From contig NZ_AP025592.1 in NCBI RefSeq assembly GCF_023169965.1, positions 2,108,001-2,172,000 on the forward strand: a stretch of 64,000 bases of DNA, written 5' to 3'. A program made the position numbers and the translations under genes. A model generated the notes under the pieces. That model worked only from the letters and a program-made list of their open reading frames with translations. It did no database searches and was not told the DNA's origin. Below are positions 12,788 to 47,550 of the stretch, in pieces (position 1 is the first letter of the stretch; every line of letters begins with the position of its first letter). The DNA comes from Anaeromyxobacter paludicola. Its GTDB lineage: Bacteria; Myxococcota; Myxococcia; Myxococcales; Anaeromyxobacteraceae.

Positions 12788-13771
12788 CTACGGGACCTTC
12801 TTGTCGACCTCGTAGCGGTAGGCCTGCGCCTGGTAGAGGCAGATGGTGTTCCGCCCCTCGTGCTTGGCCTTGTAGAGCGCCTCGTCGGCGTAGCGCACGA
12901 GGAGCTCCGAGCTGGTGACGTCCTTCGACGGGTAGAAGGAGATGCCGAGCGAGGCGGTGACGCGCAGCTCGCCGGCCCCCTCTCCCGGCTGCCCGTGGAT
13001 GGTGCCGGACACCGAGTAGACCTTCTGCCCCATCCCGCGCCAGATGCGCTCGGCCACCGTGAGCGCGCCGGAGAGGTGGGTCTTCGGCAGGATGACCGCG
13101 AACTCCTCGCCGCCGAACCGGGCGCTGATGTCCGGGTCGCGGATGGTCTCGCGCAGGAGGTCGGCGGTGCCCCGCAGCACCACGTCGCCGGTCTGGTGAC
13201 CGTACTGGTCGTTGACCCGCTTGAAGTGGTCGATGTCGATCATGATGAGCGACACCGGGTCCGAGTAGCGCTGGGCGCGCCGGAACTCCTCGTCGAGCCG
13301 CTCCTGGAAGAAGCGCCGGTTGAAGAGCCCGGTGAGACCGTCGGTGACGCTGAGCCGCTCGAGCTCCGCCTTCTGCGCGCGCACCGTGTCCTGCAGCGCC
13401 TTGATGCGCAGCATGGCGTTGGTGCGGGCGAGCAGCTCGGAGTCGGCGAAGGGCTTCGCGAGGAAGTCGTCGGCGCCGATGCGGAGCCCGGTGACGCGCG
13501 AGTCGAGGTCGCTCTTCACCGAGAGCAGGATCACCGGCACGAAGTGCTCGTCGGGCCGCGCCTTGATCATGCGCAGCACCTCGAGCCCCTCCATGTCGGG
13601 GAGGACCATGTCGAGCAGCACGAGGTCGGGCGTGGTGGTGCGGGCCTTGCGGATCGCCTCGCGGCCGTCGCTCGCGGTGTCGATCTGGTAGTCCTCGCGC
13701 GCGAGGACCTGGACCAGCCAGTCTTGCTGGGTCTTCGAGTCCTCGACCACCAGTATCCGGGGGCGCGCCAC
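12788..13771 (-). CDS. REC-GGDEF diguanylate cyclase (WspR/PleD-like)
   Basis: A 327-residue response regulator that should make cyclic di-GMP. The receiver has phospho-Asp at about 54 (LLDMVLPDMEG) and Lys in LAKPF. A short coiled-coil linker (KALQDTVRAQKAELERL) leads to a GGDEF domain with the intact active-site motif GGEEF at about 220-224. An RxxD inhibitory-site motif (RDPD, about 211-214) sits five residues before it, so product inhibition is likely. The start is a GTG 19 nt after the stop of the ATP-grasp-like gene, suggesting co-transcription. No kinase is adjacent. It is the kind of output the Wsp-like operon at 24-34 kb would be expected to have. Confidence 0.92.
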   Translation of the reverse strand: MARPRILVVEDSKTQQDWLVQVLAREDYQIDTASDGREAIRKARTTTPDLVLLDMVLPDMEGLEVLRMIKARPDEHFVPVILLSVKSDLDSRVTGLRIGADDFLAKPFADSELLARTNAMLRIKALQDTVRAQKAELERLSVTDGLTGLFNRRFFQERLDEEFRRAQRYSDPVSLIMIDIDHFKRVNDQYGHQTGDVVLRGTADLLRETIRDPDISARFGGEEFAVILPKTHLSGALTVAERIWRGMGQKVYSVSGTIHGQPGEGAGELRVTASLGISFYPSKDVTSSELLVRYADEALYKAKHEGRNTICLYQAQAYRYEVDKKVP

Positions 13772-39835: not shown

Positions 39836-40519
39836 CTACTGGGCCGGCTGCGCGGCGGGGGCGGCGGCCGGCTCGGCGGCGGCCGCCGGGGCCTTCGCCG
39901 CCTTGGCGGCCTTCTTCGCCTTCTTGGCCGGCAGCTTCGACGCCTTGGCGGGCGCCTTCACCGCCTTGCGGGCCGGCGCGGCGCCGTCCGCCGGGCCGAG
40001 CACGCGGTTGCCGGTCTCGTCCATGGAGGTGAAGAGCGCGACCTTGGCGCTGGCGGTGGCGTCGTCCGCCTTGTTCGGGTGGCAGACGGCGCAGAACTGC
40101 TCCATCTTCTGGCCCTTGGCGGTGTCGACGCGCAGGTACTTGTGGTACGGGTTCGAGGGGTGCGGGTCGTGGCAGCCGAGGCACTCGAAGCGCCCGTCCC
40201 GCATCAGCTCGCCCGGCACCTTCGCGACCTTGGCGTTCACGTGGTCGAGGCCGTACGGGTGGCTCATGTGCGACGAGATCGAGGTCGCCATCCCGCCGTC
40301 CTTGTGGCAGGCGAGGCAGAGCGCCGACGAGCCGCTCACCGGCTGGTTGGCGCGGGTGGTGGCCGACTTGTTCGCCTCGACGGCGAAGATGAGCTCGCCC
40401 TTGGCGGCGTGGATCGAGTGGCAGCCCGAGCAGCTCAGGGCGTCGTGGCCGCCGGCGGCGAGGGCGGCGAGCGGAGCGGTGCAGGCCGCGAGGACGGCGG
40501 CGAGACGGACGAGTCGCAT
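39836..40519 (-). CDS. Tetraheme c-type cytochrome with Lys/Ala-rich tail
   Basis: A 227-residue exported protein with a Sec signal (MRLVRLAAVLAACTAPLAALA) and four CXXCH motifs: CSGCH, CLACH, CLGCH and CAVCH. HMSHPYG and CHDPHPSNPYHK supply extra His residues for bis-His haem ligation. It resembles the NrfH/doubled-CXXCH cytochrome group. Unusually, the last 55 residues are almost only Lys, Ala and Pro (KAPAKASKLPAKKAKKAAK...), like a histone H1 tail, then acidic-neutral Ala/Pro/Gln. The tail may bind an anionic partner or the outer-membrane surface. The gene has its own hairpin terminator. Confidence 0.88.
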   Translation of the reverse strand: MRLVRLAAVLAACTAPLAALAAGGHDALSCSGCHSIHAAKGELIFAVEANKSATTRANQPVSGSSALCLACHKDGGMATSISSHMSHPYGLDHVNAKVAKVPGELMRDGRFECLGCHDPHPSNPYHKYLRVDTAKGQKMEQFCAVCHPNKADDATASAKVALFTSMDETGNRVLGPADGAAPARKAVKAPAKASKLPAKKAKKAAKAAKAPAAAAEPAAAPAAQPAQ

Positions 40520-40641
40520 GGTCGAGTTCCCCTGGAGCGAGTTGGTCGCCCGGCCGGAAGGCGGGCGAGCGGACGATGGCACGCACCCCGCCGCACCGTC
40601 AACGACACGGTGCGCGGCGTTCGCACCTCCCTTGACGGCGG

Positions 40642-43248
40642 TCACCCCGCGCGCCGCTGCCGCGGCACCGTGACGACGAACTCGGCCCCCTCGCCCGGCG
40701 GGCTCACGAGCTGGAGGGAGCCGCCCAGGCTCTGCACCACGCGGCGCGCGATGGTGAGGCCGAGGCCGGTCCCGCGCCCCGGGCCCTTGGTGGTGAAGAA
40801 CGGCGTGAACAGGCGCGCGCGCGCCTCCGCGGAGACGCCGGGGCCGTTGTCCTTCACCGAGAGCCTGAGCGAGGCCGGGTCCCCGTCGCCGCGGACCACC
40901 ACCCGCCCCCCCGCCTCCGGCGCCGCCTCGATGGCGTTCTGCACGAGGTTGGTGAGCACCTGGTTGAACTCCTCGGCCACGCACTCGACGACGCCGTCGC
41001 CGCGGAGGTCGCAGCGGACCTCGGCGCGGCGGCCGGTGGCGGGCAGCACCACGTCCACCACCGTCCGCACCGCCTCCCAGGCGTCGAGCGGGACCACCTC
41101 GCGCCGGAAGCCGCCCCGGCCGTAGCGGCCCATCAGCTCGACGGTGCCGCCGATGCGGCGCAGCCCCGACTCGGCGACGCCGAGCATCTCGCCGAGCCGG
41201 CCGGCGAGCGCCTCGAGCCGCCCCTGCGCCTCCTCCCCGAGCGCGCCGCCGCGGGCGAGCGCCAGCGCCTGCTCCAGGTCGAGCCGCACGCGGCCCAGGG
41301 CGTTGCGGGCGTAGTTGAGCGGGTTGTTCATCTCGTGCGCCAGGCCGGCGGCCACGATCTCGAGCGACTCCATGCGCTGGCTGAGCACGAGGTCGGCGGT
41401 CTCCTCCTCCGCCTGCACCAGCTGCCGGGCGCAGGTGACGAGCTCCTTCGGCGAGAAGGGCTTCGTGAGGTAGGCGCTCACGCCGGTCTCGAGCCCCCGG
41501 ACGCGGTCGTCCACCTCGCCGCGGGCGGTGAGCATGAGCACCGGGATCTGGCGCGTGGCCGGGTCCTCGCGCAGCCGCCGCGTGAGCTCGAGGCCGTCGA
41601 TGCCGGGCATCATGAGGTCGGTGACCACCAGGCTCGGCCGCTCGCGGCGGATCATCTCCAGCCCCTTGAGGCCGTCCGGCGCCGCCAGCACCTTGAACTG
41701 CCGCCGCAGCGCCATGTGCACCAGGCGGACGATCTGCGGGCTGTCCTCCACCACCACCGCGCTGTAGGGCCGGTCCCCCTCGTCGAGGTCGCGGTCCACC
41801 ACCCGGCGCTCCGAGGCCTCCTCGATGTCGAGGAGCCGGAACTCGCGGCGCGAGGAGAGCTGCACCGCCCAGTCGAGGCCGGCGTCGCCCGCCGCCGCGG
41901 GCGCGAGCGCGTCCGCCCGCAGGTGATCGCGCCCCTTCCGCAGCGTCACGGTGAAGCGCGCCCCGCTGCGGCCGTCGCTCTCGGCCCGGATGGCGCCGCC
42001 GTGCAGCGCCACCAGCTCGCGGGCCAGCGCCAGCCCGATGCCGGCGCCGCCGAACTGGCGGGTGCCGGCCATGTCCACCTGGTAGAAGCGCTCGAAGATC
42101 CGGGTCGCCTGGTCGGGCGGGAAGCCCGGCCCGTCGTCCGCCACCTCCACCTCCACCGCGCCCTCGAGGTCGCGCACCGCCACGGTGACGTGCCCGCCCG
42201 GCGGGGTGAACTTGATGGCGTTCGAGAGCAGGTTCACGAAGACCCGCTCCATCCGCTCGAGGTCGTAGACCACCGGCGCCGCGGCCGGGCCGGGCGCCAG
42301 GGCGAGCGCGATCGACTTGCGCCGCGCCAGCACCTGCGACTGCTCGGTGAGGGTCCGCAGCTGCTCGACGAGGTCGTGCTCGGCCGCCTCGAGCCGGAGC
42401 CGGCTCTCCTCGAGGCGCGACAGGTCGAGCAGGTCGTTCACGATCTTGAGGAGCTTGAGCGCGCTCCTGAACATCGCCTGGAAGGCGCCGCGCTGCGCCT
42501 CGGTGAACTCGCCCACCTCCCCCTGCAGCATGAGCTCGAGCGGCGCGAGCACCATGGCGAGCGGGGTGCGCAGCTCGTGGGTCATGTTGGCCGAGAACCG
42601 CGACTTGAACTGGTCGAGCTTCTTCAGCTCGGCGTGGGCGCGCTCGAGCCGGGCGGTGGCCTGCTCGAGCTGGACGCGCTGCAGGAGCTGCTCCCGCTGG
42701 GTGCGGAAGGCGAGGATCTGGCCGACCGCCGCGGCGAGCGCCGTGGCCGAGAGGAAGGCCAGGTTGGAGAGGGCCGCGGTCCCGCGCCCGAGCGTCCCGG
42801 CGAGCGCGTTGGCGCCCAGGAACGAGCCGGCGATCCCCGCGTGCGTGGCGACCACCACCGCCGGCGGCCAGACGAAGAGCAGCCCCGCCGCGACGATGGT
42901 GAGGGTGAGCCCGGCGTAGTAGGGCGAGGCGAGCCCGCCCATGTACGGGGTCATCATGCTGATCCCCGCGGCGACGAGGCAGGCGAACGCCGCGGTGACG
43001 AGCTGCCAGTGCCGGTCGAACCAGGAGGTGCGCAGGAGCCGGAAGAGCGCCAGCGTGAGCGCGGCGATGACCCCGCGGGTGGCGAGGAGCGCCGGGAGCG
43101 CCGGCCGCGGCGCCAGCATCACGTCGAGCAGCCCGAAGGCCGGGTACAGGGTGATGGTGATGAGCAGCCCGATGCGGAGCCCGCGCCGGTTCCGCGCCGC
43201 CAGCCAGCGCGCCCAGCGGCGCTCGCCCTCCGTGCCCGGGGCCGACAC
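40642..43248 (-). CDS. Membrane hybrid kinase with two kinase cores (HK-REC-HK)
   Basis: An 868-residue protein. About six transmembrane helices occupy residues 25-185, with no large periplasmic domain. A coiled coil (185-215) leads to kinase core 1, with His about 224 (ANMTHELRTPL) and HATPase about 335-440 (GGAGIGLALAREL). A receiver spans about 495-610 (phospho-Asp about 544, TDLMMPGIDG). Kinase core 2 has His about 638 (AAGLAHEMNNPL) and HATPase about 755-865 (FFTTKGPGRGTGLGL). The GTG start at 43248 overlaps the last base of the methyltransferase stop (TAGTG), so the genes are coupled. The multi-TM sensor plus methyltransferase neighbour resembles PhcS/LqsS-type autoinducer kinases; the receiver and second core are additions. 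The ligand is unknown. Confidence 0.9.
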   Translation of the reverse strand: MSAPGTEGERRWARWLAARNRRGLRIGLLITITLYPAFGLLDVMLAPRPALPALLATRGVIAALTLALFRLLRTSWFDRHWQLVTAAFACLVAAGISMMTPYMGGLASPYYAGLTLTIVAAGLLFVWPPAVVVATHAGIAGSFLGANALAGTLGRGTAALSNLAFLSATALAAAVGQILAFRTQREQLLQRVQLEQATARLERAHAELKKLDQFKSRFSANMTHELRTPLAMVLAPLELMLQGEVGEFTEAQRGAFQAMFRSALKLLKIVNDLLDLSRLEESRLRLEAAEHDLVEQLRTLTEQSQVLARRKSIALALAPGPAAAPVVYDLERMERVFVNLLSNAIKFTPPGGHVTVAVRDLEGAVEVEVADDGPGFPPDQATRIFERFYQVDMAGTRQFGGAGIGLALARELVALHGGAIRAESDGRSGARFTVTLRKGRDHLRADALAPAAAGDAGLDWAVQLSSRREFRLLDIEEASERRVVDRDLDEGDRPYSAVVVEDSPQIVRLVHMALRRQFKVLAAPDGLKGLEMIRRERPSLVVTDLMMPGIDGLELTRRLREDPATRQIPVLMLTARGEVDDRVRGLETGVSAYLTKPFSPKELVTCARQLVQAEEETADLVLSQRMESLEIVAAGLAHEMNNPLNYARNALGRVRLDLEQALALARGGALGEEAQGRLEALAGRLGEMLGVAESGLRRIGGTVELMGRYGRGGFRREVVPLDAWEAVRTVVDVVLPATGRRAEVRCDLRGDGVVECVAEEFNQVLTNLVQNAIEAAPEAGGRVVVRGDGDPASLRLSVKDNGPGVSAEARARLFTPFFTTKGPGRGTGLGLTIARRVVQSLGGSLQLVSPPGEGAEFVVTVPRQRRAG

Positions 43249-44843
43249 TAGGCCCGCACCACCTCGAAGAACGGGTTGGCCCCGCTCTCCTCCTCGAGCA
43301 GCCGGACTCGCGCCCCCGGCACCGCGCGCCGCCCGAGCGCGAGCAGCTCCTCGCGGGTGCGGTAGATGAGCGGCCAGTCGAGGTGGTGCTCCATGAGCCA
43401 GCGGGTCGGGTGGTCCACCATGTTGGCGACGAGGAGCTGCCCGCCCTCGGCGGTGCACTCGGCGAGGCGCCGCGTCAGCACCACCGCGGTGCGCGGGGCG
43501 AGGTAGTCGTAGAGCCCGCAGGAGTAGACGAGGTCGAACTTCCCGAACGGCTCGAACAGCGCGCCGTCGCGCAGGAGCCGCTTGATCGAGTCGTGCAGGA
43601 AGGTGAGCCGCACCTCGCCCGGCGCGCGGGCCTCCACCCGCGCCTGCAGCCGGCGCCAGGCGTGGGCGAGCGCGTTCTTGTCCTGCTCGAAGAGCACCAC
43701 CTCGAGCGGCACCGGCAGCTCCGGGGTCTCCTCGAGGAGCTCGAAGAGCTCCTGCGCCGGCCCGGCGGCGATGGAGAGGACGCGCACCGGCGGGGAGGCC
43801 CGGCCGCGGTTGGCGAGCAGCGCCGCGAGCTGCCGCTTCACGAGGTCCTTGCGGAAGCGCACCGCCTGGGCGGCCCGGCTGCTCGTGAAGGCGAGGCCGA
43901 CGGCGCGCGCGAAGAGCGTCGCCCCCTCGAAGTTCTTCTCGTAGATGAAGTTCATCACCTCGTAGTCGCCCGGGTAGCCGAAGGGCTTGTGGCGGGCGCG
44001 GTGGCAGCAGGGCGCCTGCATGAGGAACCCGTGCACCTGCCGCAGCGACCACTCCTTGGCGGCCAGGCTGGCGTGCCCCTCCGGCAGCTCGCGCAGCGCG
44101 GCGTCGATCTCCTCGGTCATCCGGACCACCTCGGCGGCGAAGCCGGCGCGCAGCCGCGACACCAGCGCCACGCGGGCCGGGTGCTCGGGGCCGTGCAGCA
44201 CGTGCCAGGGGAGCTCGCGCTCGAGCCGCCCGAGCTCCTCCTCGGCGTCCTCGAGGTGGAGGCGCAGCTCGGAGACGAGCGACTTGAACCGCTCGCCGCC
44301 CGCGAGCCGCCAGGCCGGCGCCCCGGGCGTGGGGCCGCCGGCGGCGCGGCCGGACCAGCTCCGCACCACCCGCAGCTCGAGGAGCTCGTCCACGTCGAGG
44401 AGGAAGTTCTGGAAGGAGACCCCGGCCACCTGCGCGCCGTCCTGCTCGCGGACCGAGCCCACCTGCCCCTCGCCGCGGAAGGCCTCGTGCGCGTCGAAGC
44501 GGAGCGAGAGCCGCACCCGCTGGCCGGGGTGGACCGGCTCCCCCTCGGGCCAGGGGAAGGCCACGCCGCTCTGCGACACGTCGCGGACGGGGCAGACCCG
44601 CTGGCGGCCGCCGAGCGCGAGCGTCACCGTCCCGCGCAGCGGGGCGAGGTCGGCGGCGGTGAAGCGCTGCGGGCGGAAGAAGACGCCGCGCCCCTCGGCG
44701 CCGTCGAGCTCCTCGTAGGTGCGGATCCGCGGCGCCGCCGAGGGCGAGTCGTTCGCGGCCGGGCCGAGCGGCGCCGCCTCCGCCTCCGGGCCGCCGCCGA
44801 GCGGCAGCCCCTCCACGCCTTCGCTCCGCTCCTGGAGATCCAT
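43248..44843 (-). CDS. PilZ-domain SAM-dependent methyltransferase, PhcB-like
   Basis: A 531-residue soluble protein. A PilZ-like domain lies at about 55-155, with the D-x-S-x-x-G motif in RDVSQSGVAF (Asp about 88). The upstream Arg motif is FRPQR and not a clean RxxxR, so cyclic di-GMP binding is uncertain. Residues about 185-265 are helical. The C-terminal class I methyltransferase has SAM motif I VRVLSIAAGPAQE (about 353-365). It is preceded by the distinctive HKPFGYPGDYEVMN stretch, which I associate with proteins annotated as 3-hydroxypalmitate methyl ester synthases (PhcB). It lies between a REC-kinase and a membrane kinase in one operon. The substrate is inferred, not shown. Confidence 0.75.
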   Translation of the reverse strand: MDLQERSEGVEGLPLGGGPEAEAAPLGPAANDSPSAAPRIRTYEELDGAEGRGVFFRPQRFTAADLAPLRGTVTLALGGRQRVCPVRDVSQSGVAFPWPEGEPVHPGQRVRLSLRFDAHEAFRGEGQVGSVREQDGAQVAGVSFQNFLLDVDELLELRVVRSWSGRAAGGPTPGAPAWRLAGGERFKSLVSELRLHLEDAEEELGRLERELPWHVLHGPEHPARVALVSRLRAGFAAEVVRMTEEIDAALRELPEGHASLAAKEWSLRQVHGFLMQAPCCHRARHKPFGYPGDYEVMNFIYEKNFEGATLFARAVGLAFTSSRAAQAVRFRKDLVKRQLAALLANRGRASPPVRVLSIAAGPAQELFELLEETPELPVPLEVVLFEQDKNALAHAWRRLQARVEARAPGEVRLTFLHDSIKRLLRDGALFEPFGKFDLVYSCGLYDYLAPRTAVVLTRRLAECTAEGGQLLVANMVDHPTRWLMEHHLDWPLIYRTREELLALGRRAVPGARVRLLEEESGANPFFEVVRA

Positions 44844-44867
44844 GATCGTCCCCTCTCCCTTCGGCCC

Positions 44868-46064
44868 TCAGGCCTCGGTCACCACCGGCAACGACACCTC
44901 GAAGCGCGCCCCGCCGCCCGGCCGCTCGGACACGCCGATGCGGCCCTGGTGCGACTCGACGATGAGCCGCGCCATGTAGAGGCCGAGCCCGAGCCCCTCC
45001 TGCCCCTTGCTGGAGGCGAAGGGCTGGAAGAGCCGCTCCCGCAGCTCGGGCGCGACCCCCGGCCCCTGGTCCTCGACCGCGAGCTCGACCCCGCCGTCGC
45101 GGCGCTGGGCGAGCACGCGGACCTGGGCCCGGCCCTGGGTGGCCTGCAGGGCGTTGCGGACGAGGTTCACGAGCACCTGCGTCAGCTTCTGCCGGTCGGC
45201 CCGCACCGGCGGGAGCCCCGGCGCCACCTCGGACACGACGTCGCGCAGCCGGTAGAGCCGGTCCATGCGGGCGATGGCGAGCGCGTCGCTCACCACCTGG
45301 CCGGGGTCGAGCGGGGCGAGCTGCACGCCGAGCCCGCCGCGGGCGTAGCCGTGGAGCGACGAGAGGGTGCGCGACAGGTCGTCCACTCCGGCCAGGCAGG
45401 CGGTGAGCGTCTCGCGCAGCTCGGGGGAGACGGTGGTCTGGGACATCTCCCACTCCGCCGCCCGCAGCCCCACGATGACGTTCTTGAGGTCGTGGGTGAC
45501 GCCGGCGGTGAGCTGGCCGATGGTGCCGAGCCGCTCCAGGTCGAGCAGCATCCGCTGCTGCTCGCCGAGCCGGTCGAGCGAGGCCTGCAGCTCGTCGCTG
45601 CGCCGCGCCAGCAGCTCCACCAGCTTGGAGATGGTCCGCCGCTGCGCCACCTGGTCGGCGGCCTGCTCCACCGCCTGGAGCACGTCGGCCGGCTCCCAGG
45701 GCTTGCGCAGGAACCGGAAGGCCCGGGCGCGGTTGATGGCGCGCTCGAGGGCCTGCATGTCGGCGAAGCCGGTGATGACCACGCCGGCGGCGTCGTGGCC
45801 GCGCTCGCGGAGCCGCTCGAGGAGCTCCACCCCGGTCATGCCGGGCATCCGCTGGTCGGTGACCACGACGTCGAGCGGGACCCGCTCCGAGATCCGCAGC
45901 GCCTCCTCGCCGGACGCGGCGGCGTGCACGACCCAGCGGTCCTCGAGCAGGACCCTCAGGACTTGGACGTTGAACGGCTCGTCGTCCACGACCAGGACCC
46001 CGCGGGAGCGCGAGGTCCCCACACCGAACCGCTCTACGAGGACCGCGACGCTCCGTTCGTCCAC
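44868..46064 (-). CDS. Response regulator-histidine kinase (REC-HK), PhcR-like
   Basis: A 398-residue soluble protein. The receiver is at about 20-135 (phospho-Asp about 70, VVTDQRMPGMTG; Lys in FLRKPW). A coiled coil at 140-180 leads to a HisKA-like region with His about 191 (TAGVTHDLKNVIVG) and an HATPase domain (about 290-398, QEGLGLGLYMARL). The GTG at 46064 was chosen: GGAGG precedes it at 9 nt and a near-consensus promoter lies just upstream, whereas the longer frame from 46145 would begin upstream of that promoter. It is the first gene of the operon, followed 24 nt later by the PilZ-methyltransferase. REC-HK order is that of PhcR/PhcQ-type regulators. Confidence 0.88.
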   Translation of the reverse strand: MDERSVAVLVERFGVGTSRSRGVLVVDDEPFNVQVLRVLLEDRWVVHAAASGEEALRISERVPLDVVVTDQRMPGMTGVELLERLRERGHDAAGVVITGFADMQALERAINRARAFRFLRKPWEPADVLQAVEQAADQVAQRRTISKLVELLARRSDELQASLDRLGEQQRMLLDLERLGTIGQLTAGVTHDLKNVIVGLRAAEWEMSQTTVSPELRETLTACLAGVDDLSRTLSSLHGYARGGLGVQLAPLDPGQVVSDALAIARMDRLYRLRDVVSEVAPGLPPVRADRQKLTQVLVNLVRNALQATQGRAQVRVLAQRRDGGVELAVEDQGPGVAPELRERLFQPFASSKGQEGLGLGLYMARLIVESHQGRIGVSERPGGGARFEVSLPVVTEA

Positions 46065-46094
46065 ACGCCCACACCTCCGCCGGGGGAGTGGTCG

Positions 46095-46123
46095 AGTATA
46101 GGCAACGCTCTCCCGGGTGTAAA
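46095..46123 (-). promoter_or_regulatory. Near-consensus sigma-70 promoter of the REC-HK operon
   Basis: On the minus strand: TTTACA (46123-46118), a 17-bp spacer, then TATACT (46100-46095). Each hexamer matches five of six consensus bases, the best promoter seen in this window. The start site would be near 46088, leaving a leader of about 24 nt with GGAGG before the GTG at 46064. Confidence 0.75.
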
Positions 46124-46158
46124 AAACCCGGTCCGAAAGCGTCAATTTCGACCCAGGG

Positions 46159-47550
46159 TCAGGCTTGCTGCTTGATCTCGGTCACGAGCCGGGCGAGCGA
46201 GGCCTTCGCGTCGCCGAAGAGCATCGAGGTCTTCGGGTCGTAGAACAGCTCGTTCTCGATGCCGGCGAACCCCGGGCTCATCGAGCGCTTCATCACGATG
46301 ATGCTCTTCGCGTCCTGCACCGCGAGGATGGGCATCCCGTAGATGGGGCTCCCCTTGTCGTGCTTGGCGGCCGGGTTCACCACGTCGTTGGCGCCGATGA
46401 CCAGGGCCACGTCGGCGTTCTGGAACTCGTGGTTGACCTCCTCCATGTCCTTGAGCTTGTCGTAGGGGACGTCGGCCTCGGCGAGGAGCACGTTCATGTG
46501 GCCCGGCATGCGGCCGGCCACCGGGTGGATGGCGTAGAGCACCTCGCCCCCGTTCTTCTCGACGAGGTCGGCCAGCTCGCGGACCTGGTGCTGCGCCTGC
46601 GCCACCGCCATCCCGTACCCCGGCACGACGATGACCTTGCGGGCGTAGGCGAGCTGGATGGCGGCGTCCTCCGCGGTGACCGCGTGCACCGTGAGCCCCT
46701 CGGCCAGCTTCTTCGCGGACTCGACCGGCGCGCCGAAGGCGCCGAAGAGCACGTTCCCGAAGGAGCGGTTCATCGCCTTCGACATGGCGATGGAGAGGAT
46801 GAAGCCGGAGGCGCCGTCGAGCGCGCCGGCGATGATGAGGACGTTGTTGCCGATGGCGAAGCCGGTCGCGCTCGAGGCGAGGCCGGCGTAGCTGTTGAGG
46901 AGCGACAGCACCACCGGCATGTCGGCGCCGCCGATGGGCACGACGAGCGACACGCCGACCGCGAAGGCGAGCGCCGCCATGAGGTAGAAGGCCCACGGGG
47001 TGGCCGGCTCGACCACCAGCCAGACGAAGAGCGCCACGGTGACGAGGAACAGCACCCCGTTGGCCGCGTTCTGGCCCTTGAAGGTGAGCGGGCGGCCCGG
47101 GAGGAGCTCCTGCAGCTTGCCGAAGGCGATGAAGCTGCCGGTCACGGTGAGCGCGCCGAAGAGCACCTCGAACCCGAGCGCGGCCATGCGGGCGTGGCCG
47201 ACCGCGCCGCCGTTCCCGGCGTTGTAGAACTCCGAGATGCCGACCAGCGTCGCCGCGAGCGCGCCGAACATGTGGCTGATGGCGATCCGCTGCGGCATGG
47301 CGGTCATCGGCACGAACATGCCGAGCGGGTAGCCGATGGCCGAGCCGAGCGCGAGCCCGAGCAGGATGAACCGGAAGTCCACGATCTGCTCGTGGAGCAG
47401 CGTGCCGACGATGGCGAGCAGCATGCCCACCGCCGCCTGCTGCATGCCGCGGCGGGCGGTGGCGGGCGCGGTGAGCGAGCGCAGGCCGAGGATGAACAGG
47501 ACCGAGGCGACGAGGTAGGTCGCCTGGATGAGGAGCTCGCGGGTGGTCAC
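46159..47550 (-). CDS. pntB: NAD(P) transhydrogenase beta subunit
   Basis: The membrane and NADP-binding subunit of proton-translocating transhydrogenase, which couples hydride transfer between NADH and NADP to the proton gradient. The 463-residue protein has about eight to nine transmembrane helices up to residue 260, then a soluble NADP domain with VVPGYGMAVAQAQHQVREL, HPVAGRMPGHMNVLLAEA and GANDVVNPAA, all family hallmarks. The GTG start overlaps the pntAB stop as GTGA. The length is standard. Confidence 0.96.
   Translation of the reverse strand: MTTRELLIQATYLVASVLFILGLRSLTAPATARRGMQQAAVGMLLAIVGTLLHEQIVDFRFILLGLALGSAIGYPLGMFVPMTAMPQRIAISHMFGALAATLVGISEFYNAGNGGAVGHARMAALGFEVLFGALTVTGSFIAFGKLQELLPGRPLTFKGQNAANGVLFLVTVALFVWLVVEPATPWAFYLMAALAFAVGVSLVVPIGGADMPVVLSLLNSYAGLASSATGFAIGNNVLIIAGALDGASGFILSIAMSKAMNRSFGNVLFGAFGAPVESAKKLAEGLTVHAVTAEDAAIQLAYARKVIVVPGYGMAVAQAQHQVRELADLVEKNGGEVLYAIHPVAGRMPGHMNVLLAEADVPYDKLKDMEEVNHEFQNADVALVIGANDVVNPAAKHDKGSPIYGMPILAVQDAKSIIVMKRSMSPGFAGIENELFYDPKTSMLFGDAKASLARLVTEIKQQA

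Follow-up and report, generated by a model that had tools for sequence, protein, structure and literature searches.

A probable Phc-type signalling cassette in Anaeromyxobacter paludicola

PhcB makes a diffusible ester which is sensed by PhcS (PMC8578825, PMC11960443). The published phosphorylation site of PhcS is histidine 230 (PMC11960443), and the protein of Ralstonia pickettii SSH4 has a histidine at this residue. Signal synthesis is affected by an R22C substitution in the N-terminal part of PhcB, outside the methyltransferase domain (PMC6989110). Profile searches of genome contigs place phcB, phcS, phcR and phcQ in this order in most of the reference loci of Ralstonia, Cupriavidus and Paraburkholderia. 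In the literature found, Phc-type communication is described only from Ralstonia and its Burkholderiales relatives. An earlier note on the DNA described here had stated that no such system was known from Myxococcota; our search of open-licence papers agrees with it, having returned neither a Phc-type system from this phylum nor a quorum-sensing enzyme in which a PilZ domain and a methyltransferase are combined, although absence from a literature limited in this way is weak evidence.

The window, that is, the whole stretch analysed, comprises 64,000 nucleotides of the A. paludicola genome. On its minus strand, from 46064 to 40642, three adjacent open reading frames encode a receiver–histidine kinase (REC-HK), a PilZ-methyltransferase and a membrane protein of 6TM-HK-REC-HK architecture. 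The features referred to below are:

46095..46123, minus strand: promoter-like site of the cassette, TTTACA-17-TATACT, upstream of gene 1
44868..46064, minus strand: gene 1, soluble REC-HK of PhcR-like architecture (Pfam REC and HATPase)
43248..44843, minus strand: gene 2, PilZ domain and PhcB-type SAM methyltransferase, 531 aa (Pfam PilZ; hhalign to PhcB)
44397..44675, minus strand: PilZ domain of gene 2, residues ~57-149 (Pfam and alignment of 18 sequences), with invariant R57, R60 and D88xS90xxG93
43251..44303, minus strand: methyltransferase domain and helical N-terminal region, residues ~181-531 of gene 2 (hhalign; AlphaFold model)
40642..43248, minus strand: gene 3, 6TM sensor, HisKA/HATPase, REC and second HisKA/HATPase (Pfam), with a GTG start overlapping the TAG of gene 2
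42607..43221, minus strand: PhcS-type membrane sensor domain, residues 11-215 of translation P0003, with the motif GGxxSPYYAGLxL (hhalign to PhcS)

One clear promoter-like site precedes the three genes; it is the only sigma-70-like site in 40000-46400, where shuffled sequences gave an expectation of 0.0, and in five relatives (L035-L039) gene 1 is likewise preceded by a TATACT at a comparable distance. For gene 1 the most likely start codon is the GTG at 46064, which follows a GGAGG at 46078; the alternative is a TTG at 46145. A gap of 24 bases separates this gene from gene 2, whilst gene 2 runs into gene 3 at TAGTG, the GTG start of the latter overlapping the TAG stop of the former (translation P0003 begins one codon early, at CTA, whereas gene 3 itself starts with the GTG at 43248). 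An Rfam search of the cassette region gave no match. The cassette is present once in this genome, and its three genes are found together in approximately 17 loci from two families, some truncated by contig ends, in which the flanking genes differ. The earlier proposal that the three are coupled is thus borne out by their adjacency on one strand, the single promoter site, the overlap and the conservation of their order as a unit.

Like the Phc system of Ralstonia and Cupriavidus, the cassette has a gene for a PhcB-type methyltransferase followed directly by one for a PhcS-type six-TM sensor kinase, together with a soluble REC-HK of PhcR-like architecture within the same operon. The genes are, however, ordered R-B-S rather than B-S-R-Q, and neither PhcQ nor a fourth REC gene is adjacent. 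The sensor has an additional REC and a second kinase, unlike PhcS, and the methyltransferase has a recognisable PilZ domain with DxSxxG, unlike PhcB. The two systems also belong to different phyla and to separate methyltransferase clades. The earlier description of a Phc-like operon therefore stands as regards homology to PhcB and PhcS and the PhcR-like architecture, but not as regards gene order or an adjacent PhcQ; judged from its sequence, the cassette is a Phc-like variant and not a strict Phc operon. The product of gene 1 matches Pfam REC (2e-23) and HATPase (9e-26) and has no transmembrane segment by simple hydropathy. Its REC domain is 36% identical to that of PhcR (E 6e-20) and its kinase 30%, similarities which are generic for receivers and kinases and prove little; its likeness to PhcR, also drawn in the earlier note, is one of REC-HK architecture, the position in the operon being different.

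Homology of the methyltransferase and sensor to PhcB and PhcS

Searches of Pfam, NCBIfam and the PDB assigned neither the methyltransferase nor the sensor domain to a specific family. Within gene 2, Pfam detects PilZ (1.4e-9, residues 67-149) and only weak methyltransferase matches. Foldseek with a PhcB model recovered generic methyltransferases and nothing on the N-terminal barrel of that protein. In a direct comparison of profiles, which had been suggested as a check, hhalign aligns the cassette methyltransferase with PhcB at 100% probability (E 3.6e-50), at an identity of only 24-28%. The stretch GYPGDYEVMN (residues 289-298), previously associated with PhcB, corresponds to a family motif, GYxGDYxM, which PhcB does indeed share. 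The enzyme is thus a homologue of PhcB. An unrelated protein methyltransferase was also considered, and was dropped because the homology to PhcB is too strong.

The membrane domain of gene 3, which no Pfam model covers in any of the proteins scanned, is aligned by hhalign with PhcS at 98.3% (E 1.9e-14) over 197 columns, with an identity of approximately 20%, and HisKA/HATPase come after it; it is homologous to the PhcS sensor domain. Six transmembrane segments had been claimed for it. A membrane domain is present, and simple hydropathy gives a count of five to six. Pfam detects HisKA, HATPase, REC and a second HATPase, with candidate phosphorylation sites at H225, D545 and H639 (P0003 numbering). 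The extra receiver and second kinase core previously described are hence found here as a PhcS-type sensor extended by a REC-HK. With two homologous parts occurring together, inference from PhcB and PhcS to the cassette is stronger than it would be from either alone.

Phylogeny and pairing of synthase and sensor

A quick tree of the methyltransferases left the deep order open. A more careful tree, with 46 rows, unites the cassette with PhcB, L051 and a cyanobacterial relative, L071 (98/92), apart from the outgroup and from a clade coupled to SpoIIE-type outputs (100/98). Clustering among non-PhcB families would have contradicted the earlier note; the enzyme instead falls in the kinase-coupled clade that holds PhcB. 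Within this clade the cassette stands apart from PhcB, and the branching order of the members is weakly supported (85/56). One clade of cassette and PhcB was not rejected by an AU test (p 0.28), a non-rejection which does not demonstrate such a clade. L071 and L051 have long branches, and long branches also separate the cassette methyltransferase from PhcB. The cassette enzymes form a clade of their own, beside PhcB in the kinase-coupled group. A further Myxococcota methyltransferase, L170 (G193:C36), groups with PhcB in the quick tree (100) and has no detectable sensor domain within 10 kb.

The association of enzyme and sensor was surveyed in 195 Myxococcota genomes. A sensor gene lies directly downstream, on the same strand, of 41 of the 46 methyltransferase relatives scoring at least 95 bits, and a methyltransferase lies upstream of 38 of the 45 strong sensor matches, three of the seven exceptions beginning at a contig end. 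Approximately 17 sensor matches of lower score have no methyltransferase beside them, and sensors living elsewhere may be under-counted, since the search alignment was built from sensors beside methyltransferases. A search of plasmids for the sensor domain found nothing. The outputs attached to the sensor vary: a SpoIIE-type phosphatase, a nucleotide cyclase (L053), a hybrid kinase (L051) and a kinase (L071). The Myxococcota sensor-SpoIIE pairs (L052, L054-L058, L155-L168) resemble the cassette in that the gene for a related methyltransferase precedes, on one strand, a gene with the same sensor domain, but their output is a phosphatase rather than a kinase, they have no recognisable PilZ domain and they form the separate clade noted above. 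In two rhizobial plasmid loci (L073, L074), a distant methyltransferase relative is divergent to a GGDEF-EAL gene with a weak sensor match (3e-5, 7e-7), and GGDEF-EAL is perhaps a further output in rhizobia.

The PilZ domain and cyclic di-GMP

The PilZ domain of gene 2 scores 38.6 bits against a Pfam cut-off of 22.5, and its profile aligns with other PilZ domains of the same genome (86%). All 18 cassette sequences compared, which come from two families, have R57, R60, D88, S90 and G93, DxSxxG thus being kept; the idea of a PilZ fusion confined to this genome was dropped on finding it across these sequences. The domain resembles the PilZ effectors which act as c-di-GMP receptors in its Pfam match, its DxSxxG and its upstream arginines, whereas it differs from them in an RxxR spacing of the arginines in place of the canonical RxxxR and in its fusion to a signal-synthase-like methyltransferase. 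The genome contains 12 PilZ matches as well as seven GGDEF matches, the latter indicating that c-di-GMP could be made; one of the GGDEF matches lies in the window (12848-13348, minus strand; G000:C1:2120848-2121348).

Since DxSxxG and the two arginines are invariant, gating of the cassette methyltransferase by c-di-GMP is plausible. It is also quite possible that the PilZ domain is no more than a structural remnant, as seems to be the case in PhcB, and that the enzyme functions without c-di-GMP control; this would replace the gating step alone. The non-canonical arginine spacing would fit such a remnant, as would the absence of the ligand motif from PhcB and from the SpoIIE-type relatives, all of which keep an N-terminal domain; in the SpoIIE-type enzymes this domain has no significant similarity to PilZ. 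A remnant is harder to reconcile with the invariance of all five residues in two families, and with the retention of DxSxxG in the more distant L051, which likewise has a hybrid-kinase partner.

The earlier note held that the cassette methyltransferase had gained its PilZ domain. PhcB gives no Pfam PilZ match; its first 90 residues are nonetheless predicted to form six strands, as in a six-stranded barrel, and its N-terminal profile aligns in register with that of PilZ (E 7e-4 versus 0.45 for the reversed control), albeit at a low probability of 26%. The N-terminus of PhcB thus resembles a degenerate PilZ-like barrel, and the notion of a gain is probably backwards: loss of the ligand motif in PhcB seems at least as likely as gain of PilZ in the cassette. 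The six strands, the in-register alignment and the effect of R22C together suggest that a PilZ-like domain is old in the methyltransferase family and that PhcB has lost its ligand motif. The PilZ half of an AlphaFold model of gene 2 (P0002) was unusable, with pLDDT mostly below 60; the alignment comprised PhcB relatives only.

A model for the cassette

We consider it probable that the cassette is a self-contained chemical-signalling module of the Phc type. The basis for this reading is the gene order, the conservation of the three genes as a unit, the homology to PhcB and PhcS, the pairing of synthase and sensor, and the conservation of the PilZ motif. The signal made by the PhcB-type methyltransferase would be small, hydrophobic and methylated, a fatty-acid or 3-hydroxy fatty-acid methyl ester being the likeliest candidate, and the PhcS-type membrane domain of gene 3 would sense it. 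Sensing would control the attached HK-REC-HK phosphorelay, and phosphate may in turn pass between this relay and the soluble REC-HK encoded by gene 1. Binding of c-di-GMP by the PilZ domain would allow the cellular level of this nucleotide to set signal production. We infer the product, its sensing, the direction of phosphotransfer, c-di-GMP binding and the downstream targets.

The substrate may differ from that of PhcB, because the cassette enzymes form their own clade at 24-28% identity and the sensor is only some 20% identical. A module of the same design could thus employ another signal, the methyltransferase acting on a different small molecule (another acid, a quinone or a ketone) sensed by the membrane domain. 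The low identity, the long separating branches and the diversity of sensor outputs across the wider family are compatible with this; we regard it as rather unlikely, given that KPxGYxGD, GLxDYL and GGxxSPYYAGL, from synthase and sensor, are invariant in the cassette, Phc and SpoIIE lineages and therefore suggest a similar class of product. A CheR-kind adaptation device without a diffusible signal, whose methyltransferase would act on the membrane sensor itself or on the surrounding lipid, would suit the constant adjacency of enzyme and sensor whatever the output domain and the weak CheR-like Pfam matches in methyltransferase relatives, but is improbable in view of the diffusible ester made by the homologous PhcB.

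If the cassette is a Phc-type module, its synthase and receptor domain extend to Myxococcota a design described from Burkholderiales. It is quite possible, if not the likelier case, that PhcB/PhcS is one branch of a much larger synthase–receptor family. In such a family, an enzyme combining a PilZ-like domain with a methyltransferase would produce a methylated lipid as a private signal, to be read by a dedicated membrane domain that Pfam lacks and that drives interchangeable outputs (kinase, hybrid kinase, SpoIIE phosphatase, nucleotide cyclase and possibly GGDEF-EAL), with c-di-GMP directly gating the synthase in the cassette lineage. The recurrence of synthase and receptor with several outputs predicts many unrecognised cell-to-cell signals, for which the sensor domain beside a methyltransferase could serve as a marker. 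Furthermore, the fusion of PilZ to the synthase allows a direct connection of c-di-GMP with autoinducer production to be tested; through this probable c-di-GMP-binding domain the cassette may couple a private chemical signal with the internal lifestyle switch of the cell.

Distribution and genomic neighbourhood

Amongst 60 relatives compared, the full PilZ-methyltransferase was found in members of two families. Its distribution is patchy, the gene being absent from several genomes of the same family. All but one of the cassette-type methyltransferases for which flanking sequence is available have the membrane kinase with them, so that homologous operons lacking this kinase, which would have counted against the earlier note, are not the pattern observed. 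A paralogous PilZ-methyltransferase of the cassette clade (L047, G009:C133) stands alone, with neither a sensor kinase nor a REC-HK adjoining it.

Beyond the three genes, none is a neighbour of the cassette in more than a handful of relatives, and synteny therefore reveals no output target. Common open frames recur directly downstream of gene 3 in L040, L043, L044 and L045. In A. paludicola, the product of the gene directly downstream of the cassette (~39836-40580, minus strand) is a small protein in which CxxCH occurs four times (CSGCH, CLACH, CLGCH and CAVCH), likely a tetraheme cytochrome, and this gene adjoins the cassette in a genome of the same genus (L031) too.
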